Below the pieces are notes generated by a model. It made no database searches. It had not been told where the DNA came from and saw only the letters and a program-made list of their open reading frames with translations. From a virus, in the IMG/VR virus record IMGVR_UViG_3300009159_005922, positions 1 through 35,659 of that record: a stretch of DNA of 35,659 nucleotides, one strand, 5' to 3'. This document shows positions 28,345 through 35,659 of the stretch, piece after piece; positions within the stretch are counted from its first letter, which is position 1; each line of letters opens with the position of its first letter. The position numbers were made by a program, and so were the translations under genes.

Positions 28345-28376
28345 TTTGTTTTTTAGTATTATTTGTGTTATGTTTG
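28345..28376 (+). promoter_or_regulatory. Bacteroidota-type promoter for clpC-like gene
   Basis: TTTG (28345-28348), a 20-base spacer, then TATGTTTG (28369-28376), an exact match to TTTG / TAnnTTTG. Transcription would begin near 28383, just before the chosen ATG at 28399, which argues against the longer ORF start at 28363. Confidence 0.65.
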
Positions 28377-28398
28377 TATTGAATTAAACTTATATCAT

Positions 28399-30411
28399 AT
28401 GTCAGTAGATTTTTTTGAAGATGGTCCAACCACAAACCCAAAGAAAGTTAGAAAAGGTTCTAACACCCCAATTTTAGATAACTTCTCTCGTGATCTTATT
28501 AAGATGGCCGAGGAAGGTAAGATTGACCCTATTGTTGGTAGGGACGTTGAAGTAAAAAGAATTGCACAAATTCTATCTCGTAAAAAGAAAAACAACGCAG
28601 TTATTGTTGGTGACGCTGGTGTCGGTAAATCTGCATTAGTTGAGAAACTTGCGTTAATGATTCACAAAGGTGATTGCCCAACAAATCTTTTAGATAAAAG
28701 AATTATGTCTTTGGATTTAACATCACTTGTTGCTGGAACAAAATATCGTGGTCAATTTGAAGAAAGAATTAAGGCAATTTTAAATGAGTTGGTTGAAGCA
28801 CCGAACGTAATTGTTTTTATTGATGAACTTCATACCATGGTTGGTGCAGGAAATGCGAGTGGTTCTATGGATGCCGCAAATATTCTTAAACCAGCATTAG
28901 CAAGAGGTGAAATACAATGTATTGGTGCAACAACTTTTGATGAATTTAAAAAACACATTGAAAAAGACAGTGCGCTCGTTAGAAGATTTCAAAAAATAAT
29001 CCTAAAGGAACCAACAGAGTTAGAGACAATTGAAATTTTAAAAAATCTAACAACATCATATCAAGATTTTCATAAAGTAACGTATGAGGATGGTGTAATT
29101 GAAGTAATTGTAAGGTTAGCAGGAAGATACATAACCGAAAGACAATTTCCCGATAAGGCAATTGACGTATTAGATGAATTGGGTTCTGAAAAAAGAATAT
29201 CAACAAGAATTCCTGAATCAATTGAAAAATTAAAATTTCAAATTGATGAAATCAAAGAGAAAAAAATACAAGTTGTTAAAAGTCAGAATTACGAACAAGC
29301 GGCAAAATTGAGAGACGAAGAAAAGAAAGTAGTTACTAAACTTGAAGATGAGAAATATAAATGGTCTGAAAAACAAAAAGACAATAAGATACCAATTACT
29401 ATTGATAATGTTTATGAAATCATTTCTCAAATGACAGGGGTTCCAATTAGTAAACTTGATGCAAAAGAAACTCAAAAGTTATTACAACTCGAGGATTTGT
29501 TATCTGAAAAAGTTATTGGTCAACCTGAAGCGATTTCTACAATATCAAGGTCAATCAGAAGAAATAGAGTAGGTATTAAAGACGCGAATAAACCTATTGG
29601 TTCATTCATATTCTTAGGTTCAACTGGTGTAGGTAAAACTTATCTTGCTAAAACATTAGCACAATACTTGTTTGGTGATGAAGATAAAATCATTCGTGTT
29701 GATATGAGTGAATATATGGATAGACACAACGTATCAAAATTAATTGGTTCTCCCCCAGGTTTTGTTGGGTATGATGAAGGAGGTCAGTTAACCGAGAAAG
29801 TTAAAAATAACCCCTTCTCTGTCATTTTATTTGATGAAATTGAGAAAGCACATAAAGACGTGTTCAACATACTATTACAAATTTTAGATGAAGGTCATTT
29901 AACTGATTCATTTGGTAGAAAAGTTAATTTTACAAATTGTTTGGTTATTATGACATCTAACATTGGGGCGAAACGTGTTTCTGAATTTGGTGGTGGTGTT
30001 GGATTTAGTACATCATCAAGCGAAGTTCAAAAATATGAAGTTAGAAAAACAATGATACAAAAAGCGTTGAAACAACATTTTAATCCTGAGTTTTTAAATC
30101 GTATTGATGACATAATCTTATTTAATGCACTGAACGAAGAAACATTGAAAAAAATTATTGACCTTGAAATTAATAGATTGTCGAATAGATTAAAAGATAA
30201 AGGATATAAAGTTAATTTTGATAAAACAGTCACCAATAGAGTATTTGAATTAAATTCGCAAGAAGAATATGGAGCTAGACCAGTAAAAAGAATTATTCAA
30301 AATCTTTGTGAGGATTTTTTAAGTGAAGAAATTTTAAAAGGTAATATTGTTGAGGGTAAATTAATAAATCTCAAATATAAAGACGAAAAATTAACAATCT
30401 CAAAAAAATAA
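28399..30411 (+). CDS. ClpC-like AAA+ unfoldase lacking the N-terminal domain
   Basis: A 670-residue double-AAA+ protein starting at 28399 (MSVDFFEDG). AAA-1 has Walker A GDAGVGKS (71-78) and Walker B VIVFIDELH (137-145). A short middle domain with a UVR-like NYEQAAKLRDEEK (297-309) identifies the ClpC type rather than ClpB. AAA-2 has GSTGVGKT (407-414), SVILFDEIEK (474-483), and the D2 small domain ending EEYGARPVKRII. The Clp N-domain repeats are absent; only about 20 residues precede the first AAA module. A VGF tripeptide (534-536) sits where ClpP-docking loops occur, so it may feed host ClpP. It has its own host-like promoter and is divergent from hsp20. Confidence 0.9.
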   Translation: MSVDFFEDGPTTNPKKVRKGSNTPILDNFSRDLIKMAEEGKIDPIVGRDVEVKRIAQILSRKKKNNAVIVGDAGVGKSALVEKLALMIHKGDCPTNLLDKRIMSLDLTSLVAGTKYRGQFEERIKAILNELVEAPNVIVFIDELHTMVGAGNASGSMDAANILKPALARGEIQCIGATTFDEFKKHIEKDSALVRRFQKIILKEPTELETIEILKNLTTSYQDFHKVTYEDGVIEVIVRLAGRYITERQFPDKAIDVLDELGSEKRISTRIPESIEKLKFQIDEIKEKKIQVVKSQNYEQAAKLRDEEKKVVTKLEDEKYKWSEKQKDNKIPITIDNVYEIISQMTGVPISKLDAKETQKLLQLEDLLSEKVIGQPEAISTISRSIRRNRVGIKDANKPIGSFIFLGSTGVGKTYLAKTLAQYLFGDEDKIIRVDMSEYMDRHNVSKLIGSPPGFVGYDEGGQLTEKVKNNPFSVILFDEIEKAHKDVFNILLQILDEGHLTDSFGRKVNFTNCLVIMTSNIGAKRVSEFGGGVGFSTSSSEVQKYEVRKTMIQKALKQHFNPEFLNRIDDIILFNALNEETLKKIIDLEINRLSNRLKDKGYKVNFDKTVTNRVFELNSQEEYGARPVKRIIQNLCEDFLSEEILKGNIVEGKLINLKYKDEKLTISKK

Positions 30412-31966: not shown

Positions 31967-32208
31967 TGAGTCAATTTATTTCTTCTTATGTTAAAACAAT
32001 TAACCCAAAACCAAAGATGAAATTTCACGCTAACTTACATAGAAACCAATGGTTAATATATCCATTACCTTTTGTTTATTTTTATTTTGAAACATGTCAA
32101 CCCGATTCTCATGTATCAATTTGGAAAAACAAAATGTGTGGAGTATATTTGTCCTTTAATTGGTTGAAACATACCTACAACATCGGATTTCACAAAACAA
32201 TAAACTAA
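31966..32208 (+). CDS. small unknown protein within RNA-repair operon
   Basis: An 80-residue protein rich in aromatic residues (WLIYPLPFVYFYFETCQ; GVYLSFNWLKHTYNIGF). It is soluble-looking, with alternating beta-strands, two Cys (90s pattern absent) and no known catalytic motif. I do not recognise it. It is embedded between kinase and ligase with one-base TAATG overlaps at both ends, so its translation is coupled to both. It may be an accessory subunit, an end-binding protein or a phosphodiesterase-like factor of the repair set, by association only. Confidence 0.65.
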   Translation: MSQFISSYVKTINPKPKMKFHANLHRNQWLIYPLPFVYFYFETCQPDSHVSIWKNKMCGVYLSFNWLKHTYNIGFHKTIN

Positions 32209-33281
32209 TGTTAGAAATTTTAGAGAAATATTATACTGATGGTTTGTTGCATAAACAAACACATCCTACTAAAGATTTGACTATATGGAATTATTCTCCT
32301 AAAGTTCAATATGAGCGTCTTTGGGATGAAATAACTATTATGTGCCGTGGATTGGTTACCAATTCAAAAGGTGAGATTGTTGCAAGACCATTTAAGAAAT
32401 TTTTTAACTACGAAGAACATAAACCAGAAGAAATACCTAATGAAGATTATGTGGTCTATGAAAAGATGGATGGATCGTTAGGTATTCTTTTTAATTATGA
32501 AAATGAATGGATATTATCAACACGCGGATCCTTCACATCACAACAGGCAATTAAGGGTAAAGAAATTCTTGATAAGAAATATGATGTTAGTTCATTAAGA
32601 AAAGACAACACATATTTGTTTGAAATAATTTTCAAAGAAAACCGAATAGTAGTAAATTACGGTGATGAAGAAAAGTTAGTTTTACTTGGTGCCATTCATA
32701 CTGAAAGTGGAAATGAAGTTCCTGACAGTTCTTTATTCTTTATGCAAGAAGGTGGTTGGGAATTAGTAATGACATATAAAACATGGGGAGAAGGATATGA
32801 TTTACTTAAAGAAGAAATACAAAAGGATAGAGAGGGATATGTAATTAAATTTAAGAATGGTTTTCGTATGAAAATCAAAGGGGAAGAGTATAAAAGATTA
32901 CATAAAATATTAACCAATTTTTCATCCAAAGATATTTGGGAATTATTGAGGGATGGAAAACCTATGGATGAATTTTTAGATAGGGTACCTGATGAATTTT
33001 ACAAGTGGGTTAAACAACAAGTGAGTTCTTTTGAATATGCCAAATACAGAATTGGAGAACATTGTGGTAAGATACATGATTATTTTAGATACGGAAAATA
33101 TGGAGATGTAGACCCTGAACCAACAAAAAAAGATTTTGCATTACATTTAGAAAAATGTGATGTTGAAACATTTTATAGACCAATATTATTTGCAATGTGG
33201 GACGGAAAACCATATGAACATATTATTTGGAGAATAATGAAACCTAAATACGAAAAACCATTTAAGAAAGATGAAAATTAA
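32208..33281 (+). CDS. rnlA: T4 Rnl1-type RNA ligase
   Basis: The start at 32208 (MLEILEKYY) is chosen because its ATG overlaps the previous stop as in the other junctions; the longer start at 32160 is not needed. In the 357-residue protein the covalent nucleotidyltransferase motifs are clear: motif I EKMDGS (85-90, adenylated Lys86), TRGSF (105-109), motif IIIa LFEIIF (137-142), motif IV EGYVIKF (209-215) and motif V MKIKGEEY (221-228). The C-terminal helical part is in the size range of T4 RnlA (374). These enzymes seal 5'-PO4 and 3'-OH RNA ends, for example tRNA cut by host anticodon nucleases. It is co-operonic with a kinase and a receiver-like protein. Confidence 0.92.
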   Translation: MLEILEKYYTDGLLHKQTHPTKDLTIWNYSPKVQYERLWDEITIMCRGLVTNSKGEIVARPFKKFFNYEEHKPEEIPNEDYVVYEKMDGSLGILFNYENEWILSTRGSFTSQQAIKGKEILDKKYDVSSLRKDNTYLFEIIFKENRIVVNYGDEEKLVLLGAIHTESGNEVPDSSLFFMQEGGWELVMTYKTWGEGYDLLKEEIQKDREGYVIKFKNGFRMKIKGEEYKRLHKILTNFSSKDIWELLRDGKPMDEFLDRVPDEFYKWVKQQVSSFEYAKYRIGEHCGKIHDYFRYGKYGDVDPEPTKKDFALHLEKCDVETFYRPILFAMWDGKPYEHIIWRIMKPKYEKPFKKDEN

Positions 33282-33759
33282 TAATAAATTGAGATTATAT
33301 CTTGATGATGTAAGAACACCATTAGCTAAAGATTGGATAATTGCCCGTAATTATGATGAATTTGTGGCTGCAATTAAATTACACGGATTAGGTAATTTTG
33401 AAGTTATATCTTTAGATCATGATTTAGGTGAAGGTGCCATGATAGAATATTATACAAATGTAAAAAATAATTATATGTTGGATTATAACAACATAGAAGA
33501 AAAAACTGGTATGGATTGTTGTAGATATTTGGTTGCTGAAAGTATGAATGAAAAAATACCCTTACCTCAAATTTATATTCATTCGGCAAATCCTATTGGT
33601 AGTGCCAATATGATGGGATATATTAACAATTATTTAAAAAACTGTAGGTTACCTCAAACCTGTATAAGTGTTAAAATTGAACATACAATAGATGAACCGT
33701 TAATGTTATCCCCAGAGGCTAGAAAAGCAAAATGGGATAAATCTATGGATAACGAATAA
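33271..33759 (+). CDS. cyclic-phosphate-processing receiver-like protein (cREC)
   Basis: A 162-residue protein with a receiver-like fold. RLYLDDVRTPLAKDWIIARNYDEF (8-31) and EVISLDHDLGEG (44-55) give the acidic D-D and D-x-D-L-G pattern, and YIHSANPIGSANMMGY near the C-terminus gives the H-S-A-N-P-x-G motif. This matches the family described as a cyclic-phosphate-processing receiver domain in RNA-repair operons, proposed to open 2',3'-cyclic phosphates left by nucleases. It overlaps the ligase gene by 11 bases. Together with the kinase and ligase it would complete the set needed to heal and seal broken RNA. The family is inferred by motif. Confidence 0.8.
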   Translation: MKINNKLRLYLDDVRTPLAKDWIIARNYDEFVAAIKLHGLGNFEVISLDHDLGEGAMIEYYTNVKNNYMLDYNNIEEKTGMDCCRYLVAESMNEKIPLPQIYIHSANPIGSANMMGYINNYLKNCRLPQTCISVKIEHTIDEPLMLSPEARKAKWDKSMDNE

Positions 33760-34218: not shown

Positions 34219-34251
34219 ATCCTCGAGGTTTATACTTCGGGGATTTTTTTT
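34219..34251 (+). terminator. intrinsic terminator at convergent junction
   Basis: ATCCTCGA (34219-34226) pairs with TCGGGGAT (34237-34244), including one T-G wobble, around a 10-base loop, followed by a run of eight T. Its T-tract abuts the stop codon of the minus-strand gene. Confidence 0.75.
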
Positions 34252-35656
34252 ATAATACCATTCTACTACCTATCTGAAAGTTGCTTAAAAATACGGAATA
34301 CGGTTTAGTATTACCACTTATTTTGTAATTAAACGCAAACCCAAATCTCTTACTAAGTTTATAATCAAATGCGGTTCCTAATAAGAAACCCATATGTCTA
34401 TTAACTGTCGATGCCCCTGTGACACTATTCCAAGAGATAGGTGAGAACATCGTGAACACTTGAGGTGATATTGTAAGTTTTTTTGAATAGACGTAAGGTT
34501 TGGTCCAAAATGCAATTGCAGAACTTGCCATATTATAATCAAACCCACCATTATCGTTTTTAAGAAATAAATTAATGACACCAACGTTATAACCAAATGT
34601 TCCCTTTTTAGGTGTTGGTTTAATCCAAGTATAACCCATTAAGTTCATATAGTTACCTGCCAAATATGCAAATGCTGTTCCGTATGAGTGTATTGCGTCT
34701 AATTGTCCATCTTCGGTCATTTTCATTTTTGTAATACCTCCTGTTAATATAATAGAACTTAAGTCACTATTCACTATCAATCCACCACTATAACTTACAT
34801 CACCAGCCATAGATGATTTACTAAGTCCTAATGATATAGATGCTAAAAACTTACCTCGTTCCGTTTCTGCCGTTGTTATATCTGATGCAAGTAATGTTGG
34901 ATTTGTTACTTCTTGTTTTTTCTTTTTTTCTTCTTCTTTTTTCTTTTCTTCCTCTTTCTTTTTCTCTTCCTCTTTTTTAGCTTCTTCCTTTTTTTCCTCA
35001 GTCTTTTTTTCTTCTGATTTCTTTTCTTCGGTTTTAGTTTCCTCTTTCTTTTCTTCGGTTTTAGCTTCAGTTTTCTTTTCCTCAGTTTTTTGTTCTGCGG
35101 GTTTATCCGATTTAGTTTCGGCAGGTTTAGTTTCTGTGGGTTTTGCCTCAGCAGGTTTTGCTTCCGTTGATGACGAACTACTTGATGAAGAAGATGAACC
35201 GCCACTTGCCGGAGGTGGGGATGACGAACTACTTGCAGGTGGTGGTGCCGCTGTTGGTGGGGGAGCGGCAACTACGGGTGGTGGCGGAGGAGGTGCAATG
35301 TTTATTGGTGGTGGAGTTGATGCTGCTGCGGATGCTGCCGCTCCACTTGCTGCGGATGATGCTGCCCCACTTGCCGCTCCGCTCGCTGCAGATGATGCAG
35401 CTCCACTTGCGGCTCCACTCGCCGCACTTGCCGCCGCCTTTGCGGCTGCATCTGATGCCGCTTTTGCTGCCGCGTCTGATGCAGCTTTCGCCGCGGCATC
35501 TGCGGCGGCCTTTGCGGCTGCGTCCGCCGCTGCTCTCGCCGCGGCATCTGCTGCTGCTCTTGCTGCGGCTTCCTGTGCTAATCTTATTGCGTCGTTTTGT
35601 GGACAAGGTGTTGCGAATATACTATTAACCCAAACTTGAAACGCACCACTACTCAT
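34250..35656 (-). CDS. low-complexity protein with beta-barrel-like C-terminus, possibly partial
   Basis: The 468 residues from the ATG at 35656 have a modular layout. A short N-terminal piece is followed by an Ala-rich heptad/octad repeat (27-113, units like AAADAAAK then SGAASGAAS), a Pro-rich tract (114-150), a Ser run (about 142-163), and Thr/Glu/Lys/Pro repeats (164-250) ending in a highly charged helix. The C-terminal about 210 residues form a beta-rich domain (ISLGLSKSSMAGDVSYSGGL, FGFAFNYKISG) ending in IGSRMVL. The last part resembles outer-membrane beta-barrel strands. No signal peptide is visible at this start. The frame is open at the window edge, so more N-terminal sequence may exist. 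Function is unknown; fibre-like or surface-exposed is a guess. Confidence 0.65.
   Translation of the reverse strand: MSSGAFQVWVNSIFATPCPQNDAIRLAQEAAARAAADAAARAAADAAAKAAADAAAKAASDAAAKAASDAAAKAAASAASGAASGAASSAASGAASGAASSAASGAAASAAASTPPPINIAPPPPPPVVAAPPPTAAPPPASSSSSPPPASGGSSSSSSSSSSTEAKPAEAKPTETKPAETKSDKPAEQKTEEKKTEAKTEEKKEETKTEEKKSEEKKTEEKKEEAKKEEEKKKEEEKKKEEEKKKKQEVTNPTLLASDITTAETERGKFLASISLGLSKSSMAGDVSYSGGLIVNSDLSSIILTGGITKMKMTEDGQLDAIHSYGTAFAYLAGNYMNLMGYTWIKPTPKKGTFGYNVGVINLFLKNDNGGFDYNMASSAIAFWTKPYVYSKKLTISPQVFTMFSPISWNSVTGASTVNRHMGFLLGTAFDYKLSKRFGFAFNYKISGNTKPYSVFLSNFQIGSRMVL
34962..35580. repeat. low-complexity repeat tract inside the 468-residue gene
   Basis: On the plus strand this region is a succession of GCx- and Ala-codon-like repeats with unusual high GC compared with the rest of the window, then Ser/Pro codon runs, then A/G-rich Glu-Lys codon repeats. 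The long ORFs seen on the opposite strand and other frames are shadows of these repeats. Repeats like these are prone to length variation. Confidence 0.6.
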
Positions 35657-35659
35657 GTC

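Follow-up and report, generated by a model that had tools for sequence, protein, structure and literature searches.

A conserved operon of T4-like phages ends in a gene for a putative exported outer-membrane barrel protein

A gene at the end of a T4-like myophage contig encodes what is most likely an exported envelope protein and not an ordinary tail fibre, since its C-terminal domain is predicted to fold as a barrel and its best matches among solved structures are outer-membrane barrels. The gene (which we refer to as the barrel-protein gene) occupies positions 34250..35659 on the minus strand of the window, by which we mean the whole of IMG/VR record IMGVR_UViG_3300009159_005922 (35,659 bases), a fragment of the phage genome. 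The trait it encodes is common and under selection in Bacteroidota-type phages and carries no functional annotation: a relative follows the gene we call c4 in 64 of the 66 c4 loci whose downstream sequence is long enough (69 were examined), and the c4 family itself counts at least 497 loci across viral contigs. We give roughly even chances to the reading that the barrel protein serves a phage-encoded system for surface remodelling, as its outer-membrane anchor or its export part, and works with exported adhesins.

Pfam and PHROG matches in the window identified the major capsid protein gp23, portal, terminase, a ClpA-like ATPase and RNA ligase 1, and the T4-like gp23, portal and terminase place the barrel-protein gene in a phage. 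The best cultured matches to the capsid protein include Rhodothermus phage RM378 and the Flavobacterium phages immuto; the carrier of the gene is a virus of aquatic Bacteroidota-like bacteria. Elsewhere in the window, a cyclic-phosphate-processing receiver (cREC) protein comes straight after RNA ligase 1 (32160-33759), the two forming a possible RNA end-repair pair, and a ClpA/ClpB-like AAA+ unfoldase (phrog_4871) is encoded at 28363-30411.

The barrel-protein reading frame is open at the contig end, the window picking up at residue 62 and holding residues 62-530 plus the stop codon, so that the ATG at 35656 is merely an internal methionine (Met63 of 530 aa). Contig L002, which is the same virus (99.99% identity to the window across 9,407 bases), supplied the first 61 residues, which are missing from the window and cover the signal peptide and the greater part of the N-terminal domain. 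The complete protein is 530 aa long. It starts with the signal peptide MKKYIISLLILFFCSKSFSQ and an N-terminal domain of 60 aa, continues through Ala, Pro/Ser and Glu/Lys blocks, and closes with a C-terminal domain of 220 aa. A Sec signal peptide is present in the full-length relatives, as judged by eye and by a simple heuristic. The first-pass annotation, which had proposed extending the contig to reach the real N-terminus, could not have seen the signal peptide, which lies past the end of the contig.

All parts within the window are encoded on the minus strand. The end of the N-terminal domain (residues 62-80, 35603..35659) contains the invariant Trp71 and Cys80, whose partner Cys31 lies outside the window. 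These are the only two cysteines in the mature protein, and both are invariant in an alignment of 52 sequences, which suggests that the N-terminal domain is probably disulphide-bonded and, by extension, located outside the cytoplasm as an exported domain. It occurs in two forms, DPCDNKVYVV and DKCTGE-KIATTT, and both cysteines and the Trp are kept in each. The Ala-rich block (residues 92-175, 35318..35569) begins with six AAA[KR]AA[AS]D-type units, followed by AASG/AASS units, and a helix is predicted by AlphaFold2 over residues 84-147 of this region. It is followed by a flexible Pro/Ser-rich block (residues 176-225, 35168..35317) and a Glu/Lys block (residues 226-310, 34913..35167), the latter ending in EEEKKK repeats of the single-alpha-helix type, with a helix predicted at residues 284-311. 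The C-terminal domain (residues 311-530, 34253..34912) is the predicted 12-stranded outer-membrane barrel and ends in ...QIGSRMVL. Tandem repeats were scored at 34902-35573 (scores 63-147). The first-pass annotation had placed the three low-complexity blocks and the beta-rich end correctly, and was right that the layout is odd for a phage, but its description of the Ala repeats as heptad-like does not hold, as their period is 4/8 with charge pairs from i to i+4. Long open-reading frames opposite or inside the repeat block, e.g. at 35136-35639 on the plus strand, are low-complexity by-products. Between the barrel-protein gene and the convergent gene, positions 34219-34244 carry a hairpin and then a T run, resembling a terminator, a feature whose frequency was near chance expectation in our scan.

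An AlphaFold2 model built on the alignment of 52 full-length sequences predicts four strands and two short helices in the N-terminal domain (pLDDT about 58-71), helices over part of the Ala and Glu/Lys blocks, and 12 strands at residues 317-528 of the C-terminal domain, where the barrel was modelled with moderate confidence (pLDDT about 70-85). The barrel loops are predicted to be short, bar one of 18 residues between strands 9 and 10. In a Foldseek search of solved structures, NanC was the top match (E 1.8e-5, TM 0.62 by target length), followed by the TamA, FapF, KdgM and BamA barrels, with the EspP, BrkA and NalP barrels lower down. The likeness to outer-membrane strands noticed in the first-pass annotation, which had suggested structure prediction of this domain, is thus borne out at the level of a model. 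Against viral models, the matches were phage proteins named outer-membrane protein, OmpC or DUF481, including the outer-membrane protein of Aeromonas phage phiAS5 (TM 0.60 of target), and a few family members match the membrane beta-barrel family DUF5777 in Pfam (E 2e-4). Further Pfam matches to Borrelia_P83, CAF1A_acidic and CDC27 were low-complexity artefacts of the Glu/Lys block and were set aside. In a simple dyad test on the barrel strands, hydropathy did not alternate significantly between inside and outside positions (p about 0.10-0.12), and insertion in the membrane is therefore still a prediction. In even-stranded outer-membrane barrels both ends usually face the periplasm; this topology would place the arm, as a tether, in the periplasm, rather than on the surface as the first-pass annotation had considered, and the 18-residue loop outward, as expected.

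The structural neighbours resemble the predicted fold of the barrel protein. FapF (the Pseudomonas amyloid exporter) and the porins NanC and KdgM are 12-stranded barrels, but share about 10% identity with it over the alignment, and their functions are not transferable; no Fap genes lie nearby, and PDB, Pfam and NCBIfam gave no sequence relation to FapF, so the similarity is one of fold. FapF also has an N-terminal helical part. The phage outer-membrane proteins (phiAS5, and the OmpC/DUF481 proteins of uncultured phages) are phage-encoded with a similar predicted fold, but here too the likeness is of fold, not of demonstrated sequence relation, and the phiAS5 protein, at 223 aa, has no room for a comparable arm. 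Literature searches yielded nothing specific on phage-encoded porins or Immutovirus outer-membrane proteins.

Relatives of the barrel protein numbered 25, 42 or 163 in viral contigs, depending on the query, and an HMM survey found the N- and C-terminal domains together in full-length members. No cellular homologues turned up when 84,980 species genomes were scanned by pattern, and 395 genomes of the phylum gave one marginal match (E 8e-4); the family is therefore large in viral contigs and nearly absent from bacterial genomes. The C-terminal domain is steady in length (211-218 aa) and shares 62-93% identity among the first relatives, with dN/dS of 0.06-0.18, i.e. purifying selection, whilst the linker ranges from 121 to 264 aa, which makes repeat expansion and contraction plausible. 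The first-pass annotation had read the unusual GC content and codon use as signs of transfer or rapid expansion. The contrast in composition is real, the Ala block having 67% GC against 31% for the window, but alanine codons account for most of it: GC at third positions reaches 38% in the Ala block, against 24% for the C-terminal domain and 21% for the other genes. Horizontal transfer of a gene with foreign GC was rejected in view of the alanine codons, synteny and purifying selection. The gene holds its operon place across many related phages and is all but missing from bacterial genomes, and this synteny together with the low dN/dS speaks for an old, selected gene rather than a recent transfer.

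The barrel-protein gene is the last of a strikingly conserved same-strand gene run, preceded by c4. The run encodes a membrane-anchored protein of 215 aa, three exported proteins (one of 547 aa whose Cohesin match exceeds the cut-off, one of 865 aa with LCCL above and Lectin_C just below cut-off, and one of 297 aa that is barrel-like), two lipoproteins and the small membrane proteins c3, c5 and c9/c28, with optional lipase, glycosyltransferase and FeoA-like genes. In relatives of the 865-aa protein Lectin_C passes, or PA14 stands in its stead, with weak dockerin matches. Comparable exported proteins lie upstream in the same operon at L133:3602-6199 (-), L133:6203-7846 (-) and L135:2378-4273 (-), with Lectin_C, LCCL, PA14/GLEYA, Cohesin and weak dockerin matches. 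The operon lipoproteins (e.g. L018:3384-3764) start with CYKDD or similar after the lipobox, which we take to resemble a lipoprotein surface-export signal, and have weak matches to T9SS sorting domains; the barrel protein itself lacks a T9SS C-terminal sorting domain. In several lineages a DNA/RNA non-specific endonuclease adjoins the operon (L107:8710-9357, with a signal peptide, and L136:9935-10513).

The c4 family includes L002:5070-5789 and L251:8001-8693. A direct search of c4 against the CsgG family (PF03783) was empty, and a direct CsgG identity was at first rejected. It was later partly restored through a single intermediate, a full-length Ignavibacteriales protein which aligns with c4 (hhalign E 1e-35) and passes Pfam CsgG (28.6 bits, cut-off 20.8), so that c4 appears linked to the family at one remove. 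Neither CsgF nor curlin genes were found among the operon genes scanned. The gene of a bacterial c4 relative lies near a CHASE2-cyclase gene, as the CsgG gene of phage HTVC008M lies near a cyclase gene; a barrel-like gene near the Ignavibacteriales CsgG gene was rejected as a counterpart, being no sequence homologue of the barrel protein. At the c4 loci L206 and L208, which lack a barrel-protein gene, c4 is followed by 832-aa and 413-aa open-reading frames with signal-like starts.

A similar arrangement exists in cultured phages. Homologues of c4 (55% identity) occur in the Flavobacterium phages immuto, where the gene order is nuclease, C-type lectin, 363-aa protein, cohesin protein, c3-like, c4 (gp17) and gp18, thus sharing lectin and cohesin genes and the same order after c3 and c4 with the operon of the window virus. 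The last gene product, gp18 (QQO91697.1, an unannotated hypothetical protein), has a signal peptide, a low-complexity linker and domains that match both ends of the barrel protein (hhalign 97.5%, E 5e-12 for the N-terminal domain; 83%, E 9e-6 for the C-terminal domain). Its linker is Ser/Thr/Asn/Gly-rich, whereas that of the barrel protein is built of Ala, Pro and Glu/Lys. That linker chemistry is replaceable whilst both ends and the gene order are kept suggests a tether. Pfam places a T9SS type A sorting domain in the immuto cohesin protein (L136:12691-13422; 34.6 bits against a cut-off of 27), and by this domain match the protein is a phage cargo for host type IX secretion.

Under the reading that we give even chances, an infected Bacteroidota-type host would export the barrel protein via Sec, as the signal peptide implies, and the 12-stranded C-terminal barrel would insert in the outer membrane. 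The low-complexity arm of 120-260 aa, with the small N-terminal domain, would then form a long tether, most likely periplasmic from the topology rule. Sharing an operon with c4 and the exported adhesins, the barrel protein may work with them to alter the surface of the infected cell, although linkage of genes does not by itself establish that their products bind.

A role in lysis is unlikely, although several features invite it. A barrel-anchored tether could join the outer membrane to the peptidoglycan or inner membrane late in infection, in the manner of a spanin: the arm, with its helices and flexible block, could span the periplasm, and the neighbouring genes encode lipoproteins, holin-like proteins with two membrane spans and a small inner-membrane protein with one span and a disordered tail, which could be lysis genes. 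In one phage a GH19/peptidoglycan-binding endolysin-like gene adjoins part of the set, and the timing of lysis has been suggested as a function of phage CsgG pores (PMC9004378). However, the family has no lipobox Cys at the cleavage site and ends in a beta domain in place of the C-terminal transmembrane helix of a one-protein (unimolecular) spanin, the syntenic immuto stretch retains lectin, cohesin, c3, c4 and c2 but no holin-like genes, and adhesin domains fit poorly with lysis.

We also consider it improbable that the barrel exports its own arm and displays the N-terminal domain on the surface, as in an autotransporter, given that no autotransporter Pfam match was found, no beta-helix passenger is predicted and the pre-barrel helix is wholly Glu/Lys, unlike the usual autotransporter pore helices; what such a reading has in its favour is the signal peptide, a passenger-like N-terminal part with a helix just before a 12-stranded C-terminal barrel, and the autotransporter barrels further down the Foldseek list. 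A stand-alone barrel for superinfection exclusion or uptake, akin to other phage-encoded outer-membrane proteins, is rather improbable: phage barrels exist and the operon includes a FeoA-like protein, but the predicted loops are short save the one of 18 residues, the long arm and near-obligate c4 partner would go unexplained, and PADLOC gave no meaningful match to a defence family. Least plausible is a virion protein, whether fibre or appendage, which we regard as very improbable. The repetitive, rod-like composition of a phage-encoded protein recalls one, and the first-pass annotation had entertained a fibre, but the signal peptide, the barrel matches and an operon of other exported proteins argue against it, and a tail fibre or structural protein was rejected as no structural PHROG or Pfam match and no known tail-fibre homologue was found.

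Surface remodelling by a barrel protein and its exported partners would point to lytic phages investing in exported adhesins as a means of rebuilding the host surface. The cultured phage immuto and its host Flavobacterium sp. LMO8 make the role directly testable. More tentatively, the operon of these T4-like Bacteroidota phages may encode a trans-envelope apparatus for adhesin display, in which c3 would be the inner-membrane anchor, c4 a CsgG-family periplasmic or outer-membrane protein, and the tethered barrel would act with secreted lectin, cohesin and dockerin-like cargo, making infected cells stick or excluding other phages. If true, it would be the counterpart of the unexplained curli operon in marine pelagimyophages. 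These T4-like phages carry csgG and csgF, for which uptake, sibling capture and lysis timing have been proposed (PMC7029224, PMC9004378). The curli operons of pelagimyophages and Melnitz resemble the barrel-protein operon in occurring in T4-like phages and in combining an exported protein of the CsgG family, to which c4 is linked through one intermediate, with adhesin-like partners, their role being debated (PMC7029224, PMC9004378), but differ in that the barrel-protein phages show neither CsgF nor a direct CsgG match. The barrel-protein phages offer a second lineage for asking what phage CsgG-family operons do. Secreted phage cargo also has a precedent in cryophage, whose genes encode secreted proteins bearing T9SS sorting domains, PA14 occurring in one of them (PMC7468147); as in immuto the cargo is phage-encoded, but the passages of that paper on these genes describe cargo only, with no outer-membrane anchor. 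The annotated curli operon of HTVC008M contains CsgF, CsgG, CsgB-like and cyclase genes, and its gp018 (L252:10638-11963) looks by eye like a PA14/GLEYA domain with curlin-type repeats behind it, which would parallel the lectin adhesins of the barrel-protein operon.
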